35,163 bases of DNA from Gemmatimonas sp. (GCA_013822425.1 PNKL01000024.1:1-35163), one strand, 5' to 3'; positions 19,562 through 28,205 are shown, counted from the stretch's first letter. Notes: generated by a model from the sequence alone, not told the origin. Translations and numbers: made by a program.

Positions 19562-20332
19562 GTGACTGCTCCCGAAAGCAACTGGGCAGCTATCTTCGGA
19601 GCGTCGCTGGAGCGTCCGCTCCGGATATCCGTCGTGATGCCAGCGTACAACGAGGCAGAGGGCATCGGCGACGTGGTGCGCGGGTTCTTGGCGCATCCCA
19701 TGGTCGCAGAAGTGCTCGTCGCTGACAACGGCTCAACCGACGGCACCCCGGATCTCGCGGAACGGGCGGGCGCCCGGGTCGTGCATGAAACGAATCGCGG
19801 TTACGGGTTCGCTTCTCGTCGGGCATTGCTCGAGGCGAGGGAACCGTGGGTGATCATCACGGAGTCGGACAAGACCTTCGACCCCCAAGATGTCACCAAG
19901 TTCGCCGCATATCACGGACAGTTCGACGTGGTCTTTGGCACCCGCACGTCGAAATCGCTGATCTGGAGCGGCGCGAACATGGGGTGGTTTCTCCGCTATG
20001 GGAACTGGGCGGTGGCGAAGTACCTCGAGTACCTGCACAACGGCCCGTGCCTGACCGACGTCGGCTGCACCTATCGCATGCTCAGTCGGGAGGTCATTCG
20101 CGATCTCGCGCAATTCTGGCGGGTCGGCGACAGTAGTTTCTCGCCGGAGCTGATGGTGCTCGCAATTCGACGTGGATGGCGCTGTGTCGAGATCCCGGTC
20201 AACTACGGGAGCCGCGTGGGAACCTCGAAGATTACCGGTTCGAGAGCCCGTGCGTTCAAGCTCGGCTGCCGGATGATCTGGCTGGTCCTGCGCCTCCGTT
20301 TTCGGCGAGTGCCAAAGGCGAGCGCTGCGTGA
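19562..20332 (+). CDS. Family 2 glycosyltransferase, dolichyl-phosphate mannose synthase-like
   Basis: This 256-aa GT-A fold transferase uses a nucleotide sugar and probably a polyprenyl-phosphate acceptor. Its motifs are ISVVMPAYNEAEGIGDVV (22-39), ADNGSTDGT, TNRGYG, and TESDKTFDP at the DxD position (read ESD). LTDVGCTYRML is found in DPM1-like and PpgS-like enzymes. The GTG start is 1 base after the preceding stop, and the TGA overlaps the GTG of the next gene as GTGA. The likely job is to charge a lipid-phosphate sugar donor for the following membrane glycosyltransferase. Confidence 0.85.
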   Translation: MTAPESNWAAIFGASLERPLRISVVMPAYNEAEGIGDVVRGFLAHPMVAEVLVADNGSTDGTPDLAERAGARVVHETNRGYGFASRRALLEAREPWVIITESDKTFDPQDVTKFAAYHGQFDVVFGTRTSKSLIWSGANMGWFLRYGNWAVAKYLEYLHNGPCLTDVGCTYRMLSREVIRDLAQFWRVGDSSFSPELMVLAIRRGWRCVEIPVNYGSRVGTSKITGSRARAFKLGCRMIWLVLRLRFRRVPKASAA

Positions 20333-22086
20333 AACCACCCGCGCTCACGGCGGCGGTCGCTTGGAAGCTGGCGCTTGTCTTCGTGCTGGCGGCTGCGCTC
20401 TTCGCGGGATTCCGGGCCGCGACCCGGCCACTGATCTTCGATGAAGCAGAGTTTCGGCTCGTCGCGAACGGGATCGCCCGGCACGGCATTCCCGTCGCCA
20501 TGTCCGGTGAGGACGCTTTCCTGCGCGGGCTCGCGACAGAGAACCGCCACCTGGGGCTGTGGCATCCGCCGCTCTACACCTATCTCGTCGCCACGGCGTA
20601 CGCGCTGGCCGGGCATGCGAGTGACGCCGCAACCCGCTCGGTGGGCGCATTGCTGAACGTGGCCCTCGTGCTGCTCGTGGCGTGGCTGGCGCGCCGTGCG
20701 CTGCGGTCAGGGGGCGGGACCTCCGAAGCGGCGCGTGTCGCCCCGTGGCTCGCTGCGCTGCTGCTGGCCGGTAATCCGTTCTTCGTGCAGGGGGCGCTGT
20801 TCGCCGACATCGACACGGCCGCGCTGCCGCTGCTGACGACAGCGTGGTGCGGCGTCTTCTGGCTCGCCGACCTGCGAAGCCCCCCGACCCTTCGCGCCTG
20901 GGTGGGAGTCATCGCCGTGAGCGTGCTCTCGTTCTGGGCGAAGCTGACCACGCCGCCGCTGTGTTTCATCGCGCTCGGAGCGTGGTTCGCGGCGAGCCGT
21001 GAGTGGGACGCGCTGCGTCGGCTGGTAGTGGTAGGCGTCGCCGCGACGGTGCTGTTCGCCCTCACCTGGTTGCTCTATGCGTGGGCGGCGAACGTGCCGG
21101 CGGACGTCTTCGTGCGCTACACGTTCATCAATAAGACGCATGTGTACGGTGCGCATCTGAATGTCACGCGCATGACGTTGTCCACGGCGCGCCTGATCCT
21201 GTGGCTCACGCCTGCGCTGGTCGTCCTGTCCCTGGCCAGCATACCGGTCGCATGGAGGCATCGCCGCGAACAGGGCCTCCAGCTCGCGGCGATGGCCGCA
21301 TGCCTCGCGGCGGCCATTGGCGGGGCATACAGCCTCTGGATCGGCGCGGAAGTGACGAAGTACGTCGTGCCGGTGGTCCCGCTGGTCGTCATGGCGACCA
21401 GCATCGCGTTGGCGCCAGAAGCTGCAACGTGGTCGCCGCGCACGCTGGGGGCCATCGCTGTCGCAGCCATCGCGACCGCGGTCTGGCACGGCGTGGTCGC
21501 CGGGGACCTCTTCCTCGTACCACCGACGGCAGATCGCACGCTGGCGTCACGCGACTTCATGCAGCTGCTTCTCGATCCGCGGCTTCGCACATGGGCGACG
21601 GTTCCCTTGCCCGTCGTGCTGGTGCCAATGCTCTGGCGCCTTGTCGGCCAGCAGCGGTGGCACGACGCGCTCGTGCGGGGGGCCTTTGCCGTGATACTGG
21701 GCGGAGGGATGGCCCAGCACCTGATGTCGGCATCCACGCCGTATTCCCCACTCACCTTCAGGCCGCAACCGGATCTTGCCGCTGCCGCGGACACGCTGTC
21801 CGCGCGTTGTGACGGCGCATATGCCGTGGCACAGAAGGAGATCATCGTGCGCCTGAGCCCTGCCCGGTGCATGGCGATTGCCACCGACGGCGGCCCCGGC
21901 GCGATCCTTCACGAAGACAGTCTCGCGGCGCGCATCGACACCGATCCACGGATCCGCTGGGTTCTGTCCGCACGGTCGTACCCCCTGTTCGCGCACGATG
22001 GACCGGTCAGCGGGGTCCTGGCACGCCGGTTCGCGCTGGCCGTCGAGGTCGGGGACTACGTGTTGTTGGAGCGTCGGGTGCCCTAG
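20329..22086 (+). CDS. Polytopic membrane glycosyltransferase (GT39/ArnT-PMT type)
   Basis: This 585-aa protein has about ten or more hydrophobic segments. The first loop carries LIFDEAEF, and a second loop carries LWHPPLYTYL. These are the acidic DEA and HPPL motifs of lipid-phosphate-sugar-dependent GT-C enzymes. The GTG start overlaps the stop of the GT2 gene (GTGA), so translation is coupled. The stop TAG consists of the TA target site plus the first base of IS630-type element A. Excision in silico of all neighbouring ISs still leaves TAG, so the gene is probably full length. It likely transfers the sugar made by the upstream GT2 enzyme onto a surface glycan or lipid. Confidence 0.82.
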   Translation: MKPPALTAAVAWKLALVFVLAAALFAGFRAATRPLIFDEAEFRLVANGIARHGIPVAMSGEDAFLRGLATENRHLGLWHPPLYTYLVATAYALAGHASDAATRSVGALLNVALVLLVAWLARRALRSGGGTSEAARVAPWLAALLLAGNPFFVQGALFADIDTAALPLLTTAWCGVFWLADLRSPPTLRAWVGVIAVSVLSFWAKLTTPPLCFIALGAWFAASREWDALRRLVVVGVAATVLFALTWLLYAWAANVPADVFVRYTFINKTHVYGAHLNVTRMTLSTARLILWLTPALVVLSLASIPVAWRHRREQGLQLAAMAACLAAAIGGAYSLWIGAEVTKYVVPVVPLVVMATSIALAPEAATWSPRTLGAIAVAAIATAVWHGVVAGDLFLVPPTADRTLASRDFMQLLLDPRLRTWATVPLPVVLVPMLWRLVGQQRWHDALVRGAFAVILGGGMAQHLMSASTPYSPLTFRPQPDLAAAADTLSARCDGAYAVAQKEIIVRLSPARCMAIATDGGPGAILHEDSLAARIDTDPRIRWVLSARSYPLFAHDGPVSGVLARRFALAVEVGDYVLLERRVP

Positions 22087-23174
22087 TGTCGCGTCCCGGA
22101 AACAGCTTTACATAATCTCTCGATCTTCTGGAGAATCGAATCGGCCGTCGCAGTCCACACGAAGGGATGGGCGGACGGGTTGTACCTCTTTTCGAATCGG
22201 GTAATCGCGTCGACGAGTTCCTTGACCGAACGGAAGGAGCCGCGCCGAATGGCTTTTTGGGTGACGATGTTGAACCAGATCTCGACCTGATTGAGCCATG
22301 AGGCGTACGTCGGCGTGAAGTGAATCTGGTAGCGCGGCCGGGCCGCGAGCCAGCGCTTGACCTTCGCGTGCTTGTGCGTGGCGTAGTTGTCGACGATCAG
22401 GTGGATGTCGAGGTGGGGCGGCACATTGGCGTCGAGATGATTGAGAAACTGGAGGAACTCCTGATGCCGATGTCTGGGTTTGCACTGGGTCAGCACGGTA
22501 CCGCTGGCGATGTTCAACGCGGCGAAGAGCGTGGTGGTACCATGCCGGATGTAGTTGTGCGTCACGCCTTCGACGTAGCCCAACCCCATGGGCAAGAGCG
22601 GTTGCGTGCGTTCGAGGGCTTGCGTTTGACTCTTTTCATCGACACAGAGCACCAACGCATGGGCCGGCGGCCGGAGATACAATCCGACAATGTCGCGGAC
22701 CTTCTCGACGAAGAACGGATCGGTCGAGAGCTTGAACTGCTTCTGGCGATGCGGCTGCAGGCCGAAGGCCGACCACACGCGCTGCACGGTCGATTTCGAC
22801 AGCTTCGTTTCGGTCGCCATCGTGCGGCAACTCCACTGGGTGCTGCCATCCGTGGGACGCGTCTTGAGCGTCTTGCGAATGAGGCGCGTGATGCGTTCGT
22901 CTTCGATGGTGCGCGGCCGTCCGGGACGCCGTTCATCGTACAACCCCATCAGGCCCTGCCGTCGGAAGCGCTCGCGCCACACGCCCACCGTGGGACGCGT
23001 CACGCCCAACTCATCGGCGACGGTCGTGTTCGGCACGTCGTCGGCACAGCGCAGGACAATCTGCGCCCGCCGCACGAGATCGTGCCCCAGGGTGCGCGAG
23101 TGGGCCAGCGACAGCAGTTCCACCCGCACGTCCGGACTGAGGACCAAGGGTTGCCGCGGTCGTCCACGTGCCAT
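22083..23174 (-). CDS. IS630-family transposase (element A)
   Basis: This 363-aa DDE transposase has an N-terminal winged HTH pair (TVADELGVTRPTVGVWRERF, 51-70) with a GRPR hook at 85-88. Catalytic residues are Asp179 in CVDEKSQTQALER, Asp262 in LIVDNYATHKH, and Glu298 in the conserved TPTYASWLNQVEIWF. It looks intact. The ATG at 23174 has GGGAG upstream; an in-frame upstream extension lacks family similarity. The stop codon TAG is made of the TA target duplication plus a host base, so the element itself supplies no stop. Confidence 0.9.
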   Translation of the reverse strand: MARGRPRQPLVLSPDVRVELLSLAHSRTLGHDLVRRAQIVLRCADDVPNTTVADELGVTRPTVGVWRERFRRQGLMGLYDERRPGRPRTIEDERITRLIRKTLKTRPTDGSTQWSCRTMATETKLSKSTVQRVWSAFGLQPHRQKQFKLSTDPFFVEKVRDIVGLYLRPPAHALVLCVDEKSQTQALERTQPLLPMGLGYVEGVTHNYIRHGTTTLFAALNIASGTVLTQCKPRHRHQEFLQFLNHLDANVPPHLDIHLIVDNYATHKHAKVKRWLAARPRYQIHFTPTYASWLNQVEIWFNIVTQKAIRRGSFRSVKELVDAITRFEKRYNPSAHPFVWTATADSILQKIERLCKAVSGTRH

Positions 23175-23252
23175 GATAGGCTCCCGGTCAGTGAAGACGG
23201 GAGACAAGGTACCAGGGAAAGTGTATTTAGGCAAGGTATTTCAGGGACACTA
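22084..23252 (-). mobile_element. IS630-family element A with TA duplication
   Basis: TA dinucleotides stand at 22084-22085 and 23251-23252, as expected for IS630/Tc1-type insertion. The ends both begin TAGTGTC inward. After that the terminal inverted repeats align only with a 4-base offset (GTCCCGGAAAC against GTCCCTGAAAT). The element is about 1165 bases and holds one transposase reading to its left edge. Confidence 0.8.
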
Positions 23253-23259
23253 CACTGAT

Positions 23260-23589
23260 ATGACTGGGCTGGGGTCAAGGGGTGGTGCTACGAGAGCGCA
23301 TCGGCGAGACCTCTGAGGCACGTGGCGTTGGATGATGCAGTGGCGGTGAGCGGGAGAGCGGAGGCCCCTGGGGCGGCTTCGACGATTGATCCTACTGATA
23401 TACGCCGATTACGCGGTTGCCCGCGCAGCGCGGCAAGAATTGGATTCGTCCGGAGCTGGCTCATTCTAGCTGACACGGATTCCGTCACGGTCTCGACGTA
23501 CCGTATAGTGTCCCCGAGCATGCTCCTCATCGTGCCACAGGCGGCCGTCCGGTCCTCCACGTCACAGGGGTGAAGTCGACCCGTGGTGC
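23260..23589 (-). ncRNA. Candidate IS1111-type guide RNA (bridge/seek RNA) region
   Basis: 330 noncoding bases follow the IS110-type transposase stop up to the subterminal inverted repeat. In IS1111-group elements the target-specifying RNA is encoded here. A strong hairpin (TTGCC...GGCAA, 23417-23436) and an ACGGATTCCGT palindrome at 23475-23485 are visible and could frame guide loops. A weak 90-codon frame crosses the region but has no family match. The location is established for the group; the precise RNA ends are not readable. Confidence 0.4.
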
Positions 23590-24735
23590 TTACGCGGCCG
23601 TACGGACGGGCGCCGTCGCCCGCGGCGGCAGCTCGCGCATCACGGCCCAGAGAAAGCCGACGAGTTCCCGCGCGACGGCGACGACCGCGACCTGCGGGTG
23701 TTTCCGGTACGCGAGGTGTTGATACAGTTTATGCAAGCGATGCTGCGCCTTCCACGCGTGCGCAATGATCGACGGCGGTTGGCCGGCTTGACGGCCCTTG
23801 AGGTGCGGGTTCACCTGCGGCTGGTGGCGATAGCTCCAGGCCACCTGGATCAGCACATGGCGACACTGCGCGTTGCCGGCTTTCGTGATCGACCCTTTGC
23901 GCTCGCGCTCCCCGCTCGAGTCTTCGCGCGAAACGAGCCCCACGTAGGCCATGAGCTGTGTCGGCCGTTCAAACCGTCGCCAATCCACGAGCTCGGTCGC
24001 GAGCACCATGGCGGCCTGGACCTGGATGCCGCGGAAACATTGTAACCAGCCGACCGCCGTCGCCCAGGTCGGGGAGCACGCCAGTAAGGCAATCTGCCGG
24101 TCGAGTTCGTCCCGACGGGTGAGCTTGTATTCCAAGAGCGCGAAATATTCCCGGAAGACCATCGCGTCCTCCCCGGCCAGCGGCGACTGGACCGCGGCCA
24201 ACGTCCGCAGCCAGACCAGATGCTTGGCTCCCCAGTTCTTTCCGGCGCGGTAGACGAAGCCGCGCCGCGCCAGGAACTTGAGAATGTAGTGGCGCGATTT
24301 GAGAATCTCGCGCTGGAAGGTCTCGCGGCAGCGGACGACGTCGCGCACGCGTTCCTCGGCGACAGCGGGGATGCGCACGGGCGTCAGTTCGCCGGCGCGG
24401 TAGAGCCGCGCCAGTGGCACGGCGTCGTACTTGTCATGTTTCCGCTGGACCCCCGGCTGGATGGGGATGAGCGACGGGGCGATCACGTCGCAGGCGTACC
24501 CCCACTCCCGCAGCAGGCGGTACACGACGTAGCCGGCCCCGCTGGCTTCGTAGCACGTGCGGAGGGTTCCCTGTGTGGCCACGCGATCACAGAAACGGCG
24601 GAGCTTCCCCGCGTCGTTCGGCAATCGTTCAACGCGCGTCGGCGCGGCGGCGGCCTGCGGGAGCACGGCAATGGTGATCGACTCCTTGTGCACATCCATG
24701 CCGAGGTAAATAGTATTCGGGAGCGGGGATGACAT
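23590..24735 (-). CDS. IS110-family transposase (DEDD)
   Basis: This 381-aa DEDD transposase/recombinase has an N-terminal RuvC-like domain with the four acidic residues: Asp14 in YLGMDVHKESI, Glu63 in CYEASGAGY, and Asp101 and Asp104 in RKHDKYDAVPLARL. The C-terminal Tnp-20 domain shows YVGLVSREDSSGERERKGS followed by ITKAGNAQCRHVL, containing the SSG motif with the proposed catalytic Ser. The ATG at 24735 is preceded by GGAGGACC. The protein looks complete. Such enzymes use a guide RNA from the element's own end to choose target and donor. Confidence 0.92.
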   Translation of the reverse strand: MSSPLPNTIYLGMDVHKESITIAVLPQAAAAPTRVERLPNDAGKLRRFCDRVATQGTLRTCYEASGAGYVVYRLLREWGYACDVIAPSLIPIQPGVQRKHDKYDAVPLARLYRAGELTPVRIPAVAEERVRDVVRCRETFQREILKSRHYILKFLARRGFVYRAGKNWGAKHLVWLRTLAAVQSPLAGEDAMVFREYFALLEYKLTRRDELDRQIALLACSPTWATAVGWLQCFRGIQVQAAMVLATELVDWRRFERPTQLMAYVGLVSREDSSGERERKGSITKAGNAQCRHVLIQVAWSYRHQPQVNPHLKGRQAGQPPSIIAHAWKAQHRLHKLYQHLAYRKHPQVAVVAVARELVGFLWAVMRELPPRATAPVRTAA

Positions 24736-24858
24736 GGGTTGGTCCTCCACGAAGAGAGTGCGACAGTCCGACACGTCGCATGTGGCGCTGGTGACTCCGG
24801 TGAACACGGGGGAACTAATCCACGTGAACTCGGAGGGCCAGCCCAGTCATAACTCTTC

Positions 24859-26001
24859 TAGTACCTACTTGACATAAAGACCGTTACATGACATCTTCTG
24901 GCTCCTGGATGAAGGAGCGGTGTCATGCGCCATGTTGCGGTGGCGATCAGCCTCGCGCCCGAGGAAGCCGCCGTACTCAATCGGTGGGTGCGCGCTGGCT
25001 GCAGTCCGCAGCGGCAGGTGTTTCGCGCCCGCATCATTTTGGGGGCGGCGGCGGGCGAGGGAACGAACGCCATTGCGGCATCGCTCGGCACGCGGCCCGC
25101 TACGGTGAGCAAGTGGCGCACGCGGTTCGCCACGCGGCGGCTGGCGGGTCTCGCGGATGCGGCCCGCCCGGGGAAGCCGCGGCGGTACACCGAGACGACG
25201 GAGCGCCGGATCCTGGCGCAGCTCGATGAAGCGCCGCCGTCGGGCTACGCGCAATGGAACGGTCGATTGGTGGCGCGCGCGCTGGGGGATGTCTCCGCCG
25301 ACCAGGTGTGGACGATCTTGCGGAAGCACAAGATCGCCCTGGCGCGGCGGCGGAGTTGGTGCATCAGTACCGATCCCGAGTTCGCGCGGAAGGCCGCCGA
25401 CATCGTCGCCCTCTATCTGCACCCCCCGGAGAACGCCCTGGTGATTTCGGTGGACGAGAAGCCCCATATCCAGGCCCTGGAGCGGGCCCAAGGCTACCTG
25501 AAGCTCCCGAACGGGCGGGCGCTCACGGGGTTTGCCCATGAATACAAACGGCATGGGACGTCGACCCTCTTCGCCGCCCTGGCCGTCGCCACGGGGCAGG
25601 TCATCGCCGGACACTACCATCGCCGCCGGCGCGTCGAGTTCCTGGACTTCCTGAATCGCGTGGTCGCGGCCTATCCCGACCAGGAGTTGCACGTCATCCT
25701 GGACAACCTGAGCACCCACAAGCCGAAGCACGATCGCTGGCTCTCGCGGCACCCGCACGTCCACCTGCACTACACGCCCACCCACGCCAGCTGGCTGAAC
25801 CTCATCGAAGTCTGGTTCAGCATCCTCACGCGCGCCGCGCTCACCGGGGCGAGCTTCACGAGCGTGCGCCTGCTGCGGGACGCGATTGACCGTTTCCTCG
25901 AGGCGTGGAAGACGGAGGCCCACCCGTTCGAGTGGACCAAGGAAGTCGTGCATCAAGTCCCGGTCAAGAAACGTTACGCTGATTTACACAAGTAGGTACT
26001 A
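24859..26001 (+). mobile_element. IS630-family element B with 13-bp terminal repeats
   Basis: The element starts TAGTACCTACTTG at 24859 and ends with the exact reverse complement at 25989-26001. TA is at both edges (24859-24860 and 26000-26001). The inner length is 1139 bases. Its right TA is also the left TA of element C, so the two elements abut without any host DNA. Confidence 0.88.
24925..25995 (+). CDS. IS630-family transposase (element B)
   Basis: This 356-aa DDE transposase appears intact. Its HTH region is AIAASLGTRPATVSKWRTRF (49-68) and GKPRRY is the hook. Catalytic residues are Asp177 (ISVDEKPHIQALER), Asp260 (VILDNLSTHKPK) and Glu295 (TPTHASWLNLIEVWF). AAGGAG lies 8 bases upstream of the ATG. 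The stop TAG lies inside the right terminal repeat. It is clearly different in sequence from the transposases of elements A and C, so the three IS630 copies are separate types, not duplicates. Confidence 0.92.
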   Translation: MRHVAVAISLAPEEAAVLNRWVRAGCSPQRQVFRARIILGAAAGEGTNAIAASLGTRPATVSKWRTRFATRRLAGLADAARPGKPRRYTETTERRILAQLDEAPPSGYAQWNGRLVARALGDVSADQVWTILRKHKIALARRRSWCISTDPEFARKAADIVALYLHPPENALVISVDEKPHIQALERAQGYLKLPNGRALTGFAHEYKRHGTSTLFAALAVATGQVIAGHYHRRRRVEFLDFLNRVVAAYPDQELHVILDNLSTHKPKHDRWLSRHPHVHLHYTPTHASWLNLIEVWFSILTRAALTGASFTSVRLLRDAIDRFLEAWKTEAHPFEWTKEVVHQVPVKKRYADLHK

Positions 26002-27197
26002 GGTCTCCGACCGTCTGAATAGTACCACAGTGCAGGTGACGTGGGCGATCCGGGAATCGTCCTGATAGTATGCCACGTCACGCCAAGCCGTTTCGTTTGC
26101 GTCCGCGCGACCGGACGCAGTTGCAGGGGATGTTGCACCGTGGGGTCCAGCCGGTCCGGGTGGTGCTCCGCGTGTTGGCGTTGCTCCACTTGGACCGCGG
26201 CGTGCTGGCCCCGGAGGTGGCGCGCACCGTGGACCTGACCCCGGCCGCGATTCGACGGATCGCCCGGCGGTACCAGGCGGGCGGCGTGGCGCGGGCGGTG
26301 TTCGATGCGCCACGCCCGGGCGCCGCTGAAGTGCTGACGACGCTGGACAAGCAACGCATCATCGCGATGGCCTGCACGGCCCCGCCCCCCGGCGCGGCGC
26401 GCTGGACCGTCCGGCTGATTGCGGACGAGGCGGTGAAGCGCCACGTCGTGCCTCGCGTGGGCCGCGAGACGATCCGCATCCTGCTGCAAAGCCACGACCT
26501 GAAGCCGTGGCGGGAAAAAAATGTGGTGCGTGGCCGAGTTGACCCCGGACTATATCGCCAAGATGGAAGACGTGCTGGCCGTCTACGAACGGCCGTACGA
26601 TCCCAAGGAACCCGTGGTCTGTTTTGACGAGAAGCCCGTCTCGCTTCACGCGGACAAGCGCCCGCCGCACCCCGCCCGGCCGGGCCACGTGGCCAAACGC
26701 GATACCGAGTATGAGCGCTGTGGGACCGCCAATATCTTCGGCATCGTGGAGCCCAAAGCGGGGCGGCACTTCACCGTGGCGACCCCCGACCGCTCCGGCT
26801 TCCAGGTTGCGGTCGCCCTACGGAACCTGGTGGCCGCGTACCCCACGGTCCGCACCATTCATCTGGTCCTCGACAATCTGAACACGCACGGCGAGGCGAC
26901 GCTGATCAAACACCTCGGCCGCCGTGCAGCGCGCCAGGTGTGACGACGCCTCTCGGTGCACTACACCCCAACGCACGGGAGTTAGTTGAACCAGGCCGAG
27001 ATCGAACTCAGCTTGGTCACCCGGCAGTGTCTCGGGAAGCAGCGTATTCCCGAGTTGACCGCCTTGCAGTCCCATGTGGGGGCCTGGAATCGCACGGTCA
27101 ATCGGCGAAAGACGCGCATCAACTGGCGCTTTACCCGCAAGGACGCGCGGCGCAAATTCTCGTACACCACGAACGTTTCTAAACGGTCGGAGACCTA
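26000..27197 (+). mobile_element. IS630-family element C, decayed
   Basis: TAGGTCTCCGACCGTCT at 26000-26016 is matched inverted at 27181-27197 with one difference. TA is at 26000-26001 and 27196-27197. The inner length is 1194 bases. The transposase inside carries one frameshift and two stop codons, so the element can move only with help in trans. Confidence 0.88.
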
Positions 27198-27198
27198 G
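26070..27198 (+). pseudogene. IS630-family transposase pseudogene (element C)
   Basis: Codons from ATG 26070 encode the HTH part (LAPEVARTVDLTPAAIRRIA) up to LKPWREK. A run of seven A (26515-26521) then shifts the frame by +1; six A would give the expected WREKMWCV. The catalytic part continues from 26521 with VVCFDEKPVSLHADKRP and LVLDNLNTHG. Two in-frame stops follow, TGA at 26941-26943 and TAG at 26983-26985. Both are one base from TGG, and the second stands exactly at the Trp of HGSWLNQAE. The frame then runs on to RSET, and its TAG at 27196-27198 uses the TA duplication plus a host G. Confidence 0.9.
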
Positions 27199-27212: not shown

Positions 27213-28205
27213 CTACGAGCGCCACGACGGCGGAAGCTTTGCGCGCACCTCGATGTTCTTGAAGGCAACCGGCTGGCGCGGCCCATGCGTCTTTACCCAC
27301 GCCGCCATGCGCCCGATGCCATCGCGCAGCGTCACGTGGGGCTGCTCGCCGAAGATCGCCAACGCTCTCGAGTGGTCAGCGAAGGCGTGCACGACCTCAT
27401 CTCGCGCCGGCAGGTGCTCGATCACGGCGGGCACCCCGACGGCTCGCGCCACCTCTTGCGCCAACGTCAGGATGGTGTGGGGTTCATCCGCCCCCACGTT
27501 GATCACCTGCTGCGCCGCGCCGGGGACGAGCGGGGCCCTCGCGATCAGGCCCGCCACGTTGTCGATGTGCGAGAACGCCCGCGTCTGCAGTCCGTCGCCG
27601 AAGCAGGTCATGGGACGGCCCTGCAACACCTGATTGAGGAAGATCCCGACGACATTGCGGTATTTGTCGGCGATGTTCTGCCTCTCGCCGTAAACGTTGT
27701 GCGGACGGAAGATCACGTACGGCAACCCGAACACGTGATGCGCGGCGGCGAGGTCGAGCTCCACGGCGTACTTGCCAATGCCGTACGGGTCCTCGGGACG
27801 CGGTGTCAGGTTCTCGTGCATCGGCAGCTGATTGGCGCCATACACGGCAATGGACGATGTAAAGACGAAGCAGGCAGATTCGTGCTTGATCGCTTCATTC
27901 ACTAACGTCATCGATCCGACGACGTTGTTCTCGTAGTTGTATCGCCGGATGAAGTGACTCAGGCCTTCGGCGGCGTACGCGGCCAGATGATAGACGTAGT
28001 CGAATCGCCGTCCCTCGAACACACGGCCGATGAACGCGGCGTCGGTGACGGAGCCGCGCCTGAATGCCACGCCCGCCGGGACGTTCTCCTCGAACCCGCC
28101 GGACAGATCATCGACACCGACGACTTCGAAGCCTTCTGCCAGGCAGTGGTCAGCGACATGTGAGCCGATGAAGCCGGCCACACCCGTTATCAGAACGCGC
28201 GGCAT
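27213..28205 (-). CDS. NAD-dependent sugar epimerase/dehydratase (extended SDR)
   Basis: This 330-aa extended short-chain dehydrogenase acts on a nucleotide sugar, probably a GalE/UDP-glucose 4-epimerase-like or related C4/C5 reaction. The Rossmann loop is GVAGFIGSH (8-16), followed by the acidic VDDLSGG. Catalytic TSSIAVYG and YGIGK (Tyr/Lys) are present, then FRPHNVYGERQ. It is convergent with the methyltransferase-GT2-GT39 genes; without the four insertion sequences the stop codons would be about 15 bases apart. It fits a surface-glycan pathway. The precise sugar cannot be told. Confidence 0.88.
   Translation of the reverse strand: MPRVLITGVAGFIGSHVADHCLAEGFEVVGVDDLSGGFEENVPAGVAFRRGSVTDAAFIGRVFEGRRFDYVYHLAAYAAEGLSHFIRRYNYENNVVGSMTLVNEAIKHESACFVFTSSIAVYGANQLPMHENLTPRPEDPYGIGKYAVELDLAAAHHVFGLPYVIFRPHNVYGERQNIADKYRNVVGIFLNQVLQGRPMTCFGDGLQTRAFSHIDNVAGLIARAPLVPGAAQQVINVGADEPHTILTLAQEVARAVGVPAVIEHLPARDEVVHAFADHSRALAIFGEQPHVTLRDGIGRMAAWVKTHGPRQPVAFKNIEVRAKLPPSWRS

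Follow-up and report, generated by a model that had tools for sequence, protein, structure and literature searches.

Stacked insertion sequences at a single CTAG site in a Gemmatimonas contig: probably regenerated targets and a predicted guide RNA facing an IS630 end

IS4321 and IS5075, two insertion sequences (ISs) of the IS1111 family, insert inside the 38-base-pair (bp) terminal repeats of Tn21-type transposons. Elements of the IS1111 family carry subterminal inverted repeats, usually of 11-13 bp, a 7-bp left and a 3-bp right extension and a long downstream non-coding region; a short RNA from this region guides them, its first segment being the complement of the target's top strand and its second matching the other strand (PMC11187229, where the IS4321 target is also mentioned). 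The bridge RNA of IS621 is described in PMC11208160. IS630 prefers TA within CTAG (Tenzen and Ohtsubo 1991, as cited in PMC2170065), and IS870 of Agrobacterium needs CTAG for the stop codon of its large open reading frame (Fournier et al. 1993, as cited in PMC6471742). Signs of both kinds of targeting are encountered in a stretch of Gemmatimonas sp. DNA (GCA_013822425.1, PNKL01000024.1:1-35163), here called the window, which is one whole contig of 35,163 bp from a draft assembly of 206 contigs (genome of 3.57 megabases, Mb). A search by phylum, together with its named relatives, assigns the genome to the Gemmatimonadota or their vicinity. Positions 22084-27197 are filled by three IS630-family elements (A, B and C) and one IS110/IS1111-family element, without intervening host DNA. 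The stack is likely to have arisen through regeneration of CTAG, together with guide-RNA targeting of an IS630 edge, at a place where insertions do no harm.

The order along the stack is A (IS630, intact), the IS1111 element (intact), B (IS630, intact) and C (IS630, broken). Its TA dinucleotides, at 22084-85, 24859-60, 26000-01 and 27196-97, all lie within CTAG. An earlier interpretation made from the DNA alone (the sequence-only reading) had proposed four ISs placed end to end with no host DNA between them, and this is borne out by open reading frames, profile matches, inverted repeats and junctions. The start of B from TA 24859, the TA at 26000-26001 common to B and C, and the extension of C to TA 27196 proved equally correct. 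When the flanks are joined without the stack they read ...GGGTGCCC-TAG-TCAGCC... (GTGCCC-TAG-TCAGCC), with the stop of a sugar epimerase gene 14 bases away; the gap that hosts the stack is thus the 14 bp between the stop codons of two convergent genes, and the site before any insertion would read GTGCCCTAGTCAGCC. The joined sequence had been predicted accurately, but not the claim that excision restores a TAG stop to the upstream glycosyltransferase-like gene: the stop (22084-22086) is present even with the stack in place, because A begins with G, and it consists of the TA of the target and that G.

One boundary had to be moved. The sequence-only reading ended A at TA 23251-52, which in fact lies inside the inverted repeat of A; this end is ruled out by a poor alignment of the repeats there and by the ends of relatives. 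At 23255 the two repeats (Table 1) align without gaps at 15 of 19 positions. Close relatives of A, 70-75% identical (L092 and L095-L097), read C-TA-GTGTnnTGTCCC or nearly so, and the end of L095 is exactly CTAGTGTAGTGTCCC, as is the end of A. The IS1111-like segment, proposed as 23253-24858, keeps its end and has its start corrected to 23256, which gives the IS1111 element its canonical form with a 14-bp subterminal inverted repeat, a 7-bp left extension and a 3-bp right extension. B and C are each flanked by TA at either end. In A the left TA is in place and the right one has been shifted to 24859-60 by the IS1111 element, which is placed between the single TA of the A/B junction and the last base of A. 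A is older than the IS1111 element, since no TA separates the two and an A inserted beside the IS1111 element would leave one. Any insertion order given for B and C would be conjectural.

Regeneration of the target offers a simple reason for IS pile-ups, in that each insertion copies its own target site. An IS630 element of this type would enter at the TA in CTAG and, starting with G and ending with C, would turn one CTAG into two. The junctions would be new targets because each insertion remakes CTAG at both edges. The tetranucleotide occurs 11 times in the 35,163 bp of the window against 35 expected (3-fold depletion), 6 of these being in the 30,050 bp that surround the stack; A, B and C contain none, and within the stack the motif is confined to the four junctions and one position in the IS1111 guide RNA. 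With so few CTAGs in the contig, and none within the three IS630 elements, the edges of an established harmless insertion would be among the few tolerated sites for the next. Selection for a harmless site would then keep the stack. The readable ends of A relatives, read by hand, show C-TA-G in 43 of 46 cases. Self-avoidance of CTAG in IS630 genes was considered and rejected, since the transposase frames of relatives, 30,474 bp in all, contain 5 occurrences, which is close to the rate of 6 in 30,050 bp for the contig outside the stack. A second IS630 stack is found in genome G078 (L126, G078:C42 1-3189), where two A-like elements enclose an unrelated IS630, with CTAG at 790, 2014 and 3189 (each junction examined) and none inside.

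The dependence of this IS630 group on CTAG extends to the end of its gene. The transposase frame of A runs through to the last base of the element without a stop codon and is ended by the TAG of the target, so that the single CTAG at 22083-22086 terminates two convergent genes. A target-supplied TAG is found in 23 of the 29 relatives examined (L092-L120), one of which is a truncated copy, and likewise in the C-terminal frame of C. A stop codon taken from the target is a sign of how tightly the group depends on CTAG, and its occurrence in an IS630 group is new, with IS870 as a known precedent. NF033545, the IS630 DDE transposase profile, scores above its cut-off for A and B; C gives two sub-threshold pieces, its frame being broken. 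C is a pseudogene, with one frameshift (an extra A in the A run at 26519-26525) and two nonsense codons, TGA and TAG (~26943 and ~26983), at positions where IS630 transposases normally have TGG. The inverted repeats of A, B and C are mutually unrelated, and A has no second copy in its genome. In another genome (G089), two of four A-type copies (L127 and L128) adjoin palindromes like GCCGTGG...CCACGGC, perhaps terminator hairpins.

The IS1111 element was probably brought in by its own guide RNA. Its non-coding region, from transposase stop to IS end, spans 334 bp, and guides were sought by comparing the flanks of IS1111 relatives with their non-coding regions. The predicted RNA has a conserved fold of two stems (GGAG:CTCC and GCTCG:CGAGC), an internal loop that holds both guides and an apical stem, with a compensatory change in 6 of 16 pairs. 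Among 27 elements, the right guide, located 5' in the loop, agrees with the right flank at 127 of 162 positions, where shuffled partners give 77, and the left guide, located 3', agrees with the left flank at 56 of 81, where 35 are expected (p <= 5e-5 in both). These p values are a rough guide, as the permutation ignores relatedness and some rows are near copies. Matches shift together with the flanks even between close relatives; the order and position of the guides are conserved across the 27 elements, and the complement of the top strand comes first, as in seekRNAs. The covariation thus locates the putative guides of this IS1111 clade. For the window element, GGGACACTA occurs at only two places in the 3.57-Mb genome, the right guide and the inverted repeat of A, and the non-coding region is more complementary to the end of A than in every one of 3000 shuffles and than to 2998 of the 3000 24-mers drawn at random from the contig. 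If the RNA is made and used, its right guide would pair with the inverted-repeat end region of A, and its left guide carries CTAG, which is the left half of every IS630 edge. The IS1111 element stands exactly between the last base of A and the TA, with the repeat of A intact and a new CTAG beyond.

An Rfam search gave one weak chance match and nothing else. A longer guide pairing of 12-15 nucleotides (nt) in a shifted register is a numerical match only and is not preferred, as it would use conserved bases of the apical stem. No second intact copy of the IS1111 element exists in the genome. A decayed relative (L002, G000:C37 ~23600-24600) retains its ends and guide region with a broken transposase gene, and is preceded by a small gene pair resembling a ribbon-helix-helix antitoxin and a RelE-type toxin; a relic (L004, G000:C13:59414-59451) consists of an IS1111 left end only (CCTAGAAGTTATGACTGGGCTGGCC). 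In two pairs of IS1111 copies (L069/L072 and L076/L079) the guide is the same but the right flanks differ, a hint of loose targeting or of insertion in trans. Among AACG-type IS1111 relatives (n=14), only about half have a GTTRRRY box, an attC candidate target, within 170 bp.

A second IS1111-family element lies at the same kind of end. In L071 (G350, a different family), whose transposase is 61% identical to that of the window element, the insertion is at C-TA|GTGTAGTGTCGC, the end of a ~160-bp IS630-type miniature inverted-repeat transposable element (MITE), and occupies the same position relative to TA as in the window. Its guide GCUACACU gives an in-register flank match with one wobble. 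The MITE (~1041-1202 in L071) has IS630-type ends, GTGTAGTGTCGCAGAAGTCCCG. A scan of 395 genomes for joined IS1111 and IS630 ends returned these two cases only, with 0 control matches, and the two elements stand on different branches of the tree, so that two separate target changes are required. It is conceivable, at somewhat short of an even chance, that IS1111 guides have on two or more occasions been redirected to the conserved IS630 edge (CTA|GTGT...), in a mutual relay between two unrelated transposon families. If true, RNA-guided elements use the CTAG edges of others as renewable harmless landing sites, and by inserting just outside the repeat of their partner they remake CTAG for further IS630 insertions. 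The window element and L071, which stand apart in the IS1111 tree, are natural examples of a programmable guide RNA apparently aimed at the end of another transposon, and they are useful for learning how guides switch target in nature.

Several observations weigh against a stack built by CTAG regeneration and guide-RNA targeting. An empty site, which the sequence-only reading had proposed to find in related strains, was not found among 60 relatives; the nearest orthologues of the epimerase there reach only ~60% identity and do not have the glycosyltransferase beside them. Two complete genomes, with 13 and 7 IS630-type copies, contain no adjacent pairs, so that copies need not stack. Read in the register that its relatives use, the right guide of the window copy matches only AGTGT (5 of 8 bases) at the insertion point; all 8 bases find their match 5 bp deeper in A, at an inner TA, and the left guide matches its flank at CTAG only. 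The guide may in reality be best suited to an end of the CTAGTGTCCC type, approached by the A relatives L104, L105 and L118 and absent from the assembly. The assembly itself is a draft, of which the window is one contig, and a misjoin is conceivable.

Four other explanations were weighed. The guide may have been built for another target (CTAGTGTCCCC), with the IS1111 element reaching the end of A by chance or off target and its match to A incidental; the 5 of 8 bases in the conserved register speak for this, the rest of the match being shifted by 5 nt and using apical-stem bases. Such a target would still resemble an IS630 end, as L104, L105 and L118 begin CTAGTGTCCT; moreover, TAGTGTCCC is absent elsewhere in the genome, and L071 is fully matched at the same kind of end. 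An incidental match is regarded as rather unlikely. An assembly artefact, in which four elements were wrongly joined, could be suspected in a draft of 206 contigs, but the lack of a second copy of A and of a second intact IS1111 copy, the exact CTAG at every junction and the canonical extensions of the IS1111 element make it very improbable.

Selection of a safe site could act alone, if the elements, the IS1111 element included, landed variously and only those in the harmless 14-bp gap survived, without any attraction to IS ends. A stop codon borders the gap on either side, that of the glycosyltransferase being preserved, CTAG by itself is enough for IS630 insertion, and most IS630 copies in complete relatives stand singly. 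What this account leaves aside is that the IS1111 element adjoins precisely the last base of A, the partial match of its guide to the end of A, the relative that does likewise at another IS630-type end, and the fact that 3 of the 7 IS630-type copies of the genome share one site; it is a genuine contender of lesser probability. Active preference of transposases for IS ends, for example through inverted-repeat binding or local hopping, was suggested by the sequence-only reading. It would fit the two independent stacks (the window and G078) and the sharing of one site by three of seven copies. However, the 20 copies in the two complete genomes show no stacking, CTAG regeneration accounts for the junctions without it, and the inverted repeats of the three elements are unrelated, so that the ends of one would not be bound by the transposase of the next; such a preference is improbable. 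That suggestion is not needed for the IS630 elements, for which the use of CTAG suffices, and gains support for the IS1111 element from the guide RNA and from L071 at the same kind of end. Repeated insertion at one safe site, as that reading proposed, fits the sequence apart from its misplaced boundary. CTAG regeneration with guide-RNA targeting of an IS630 edge remains the preferred origin of the stack.

The features are collected in Table 1. Pfam and NCBIfam searches with the glycosyltransferase-like gene gave no match.

Table 1. Coordinates of the stacked elements, their junctions, the predicted guide RNA and the flanking genes in the window.
Feature	Position	Strand	Evidence or remark
CTAG, host/A junction	22083..22086	.	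stop codon for glycosyltransferase (+) and A transposase (-)
CTAG, IS1111/B junction	24858..24861	.	TA is the former A/B junction
CTAG, B/C junction	25999..26002	.	
CTAG, C/host junction	27195..27198	.	
Element A, IS630 family, 1170 bp	22086..23255	-	NF033545 E 2e-80; inverted repeats GTGTCGCGTCCCGGAAACA / GTGTAGTGTCCCTGAAATA; relatives
A transposase, 363 amino acids, intact	22083..23174	-	stop codon from CTAG target
IS1111-family element, 1603 bp, intact	23256..24858	-	subterminal inverted repeats, extension lengths; NF033542 E 2e-56
3-bp extension	23256-23258		
7-bp extension	24852-24858		
Subterminal inverted repeat, 14 bp, IS1111 right end	23259..23272	.	
Subterminal inverted repeat, 14 bp, IS1111 left end	24838..24851	.	
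IS1111 transposase, 381 amino acids, intact	23590..24735	-	DEDD type; Pfam domains PF01548 and PF02371 both above cut-off; NF033542 E 2e-56
Predicted guide (seek/bridge) RNA core	23442..23536	-	alignment and consensus fold, 16 relatives
Putative right target guide GGGACACU	23507..23514	-	complementary to AGTGTCCC in the inverted repeat of A; covariation, 27 elements
Putative left target guide TCAGCTAG	23466..23473	-	flank match here is CTAG only; covariation with left flanks
Element B, IS630 family, 1139 bp	24861..25999	+	NF033545 E 8e-75; inverted repeat GTACCTACTTG, perfect 11 bp
B transposase, 356 amino acids, intact	24925..25995	+	
Element C, IS630 family, 1194 bp	26002..27195	+	inverted repeat GGTCTCCGACCGT, perfect 13 bp; transposase frame broken
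Membrane glycosyltransferase-like gene	20176..22086	+	open reading frame list; name from the sequence-only reading and gene context
NAD-dependent sugar epimerase/dehydratase, convergent neighbour	27213..28205	-	PF01370 E 7e-48

The mechanisms involved are of known kinds; their combination, and the repeated retargeting to IS630 edges, are new. IS870, which belongs to a different IS family from IS630, has in common with A the use of the target CTAG as a source of the stop codon. With the IS630 of Shigella the window elements share the family, the TA duplication and the CTAG context; here, in contrast, copies are stacked and A relies on the target for the stop codon of its transposase gene. The seekRNAs of ISEc11 and ISXne4 and the bridge RNA of IS621 resemble the predicted RNA in the downstream non-coding region (IS1111 type), the 7- and 3-bp extensions, the two opposite-strand guides in the IS1111 order and the natural retargeting between relatives, whereas the target here is an IS630 end and the use of the guides is deduced from covariation alone. 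Like IS4321 and IS5075, the IS1111-family element of the window is apparently aimed at the end of an unrelated transposon; those elements insert inside the Tn21 repeat, whereas this one stands immediately outside the IS630 repeat, between the repeat and the TA, and leaves the repeat intact.

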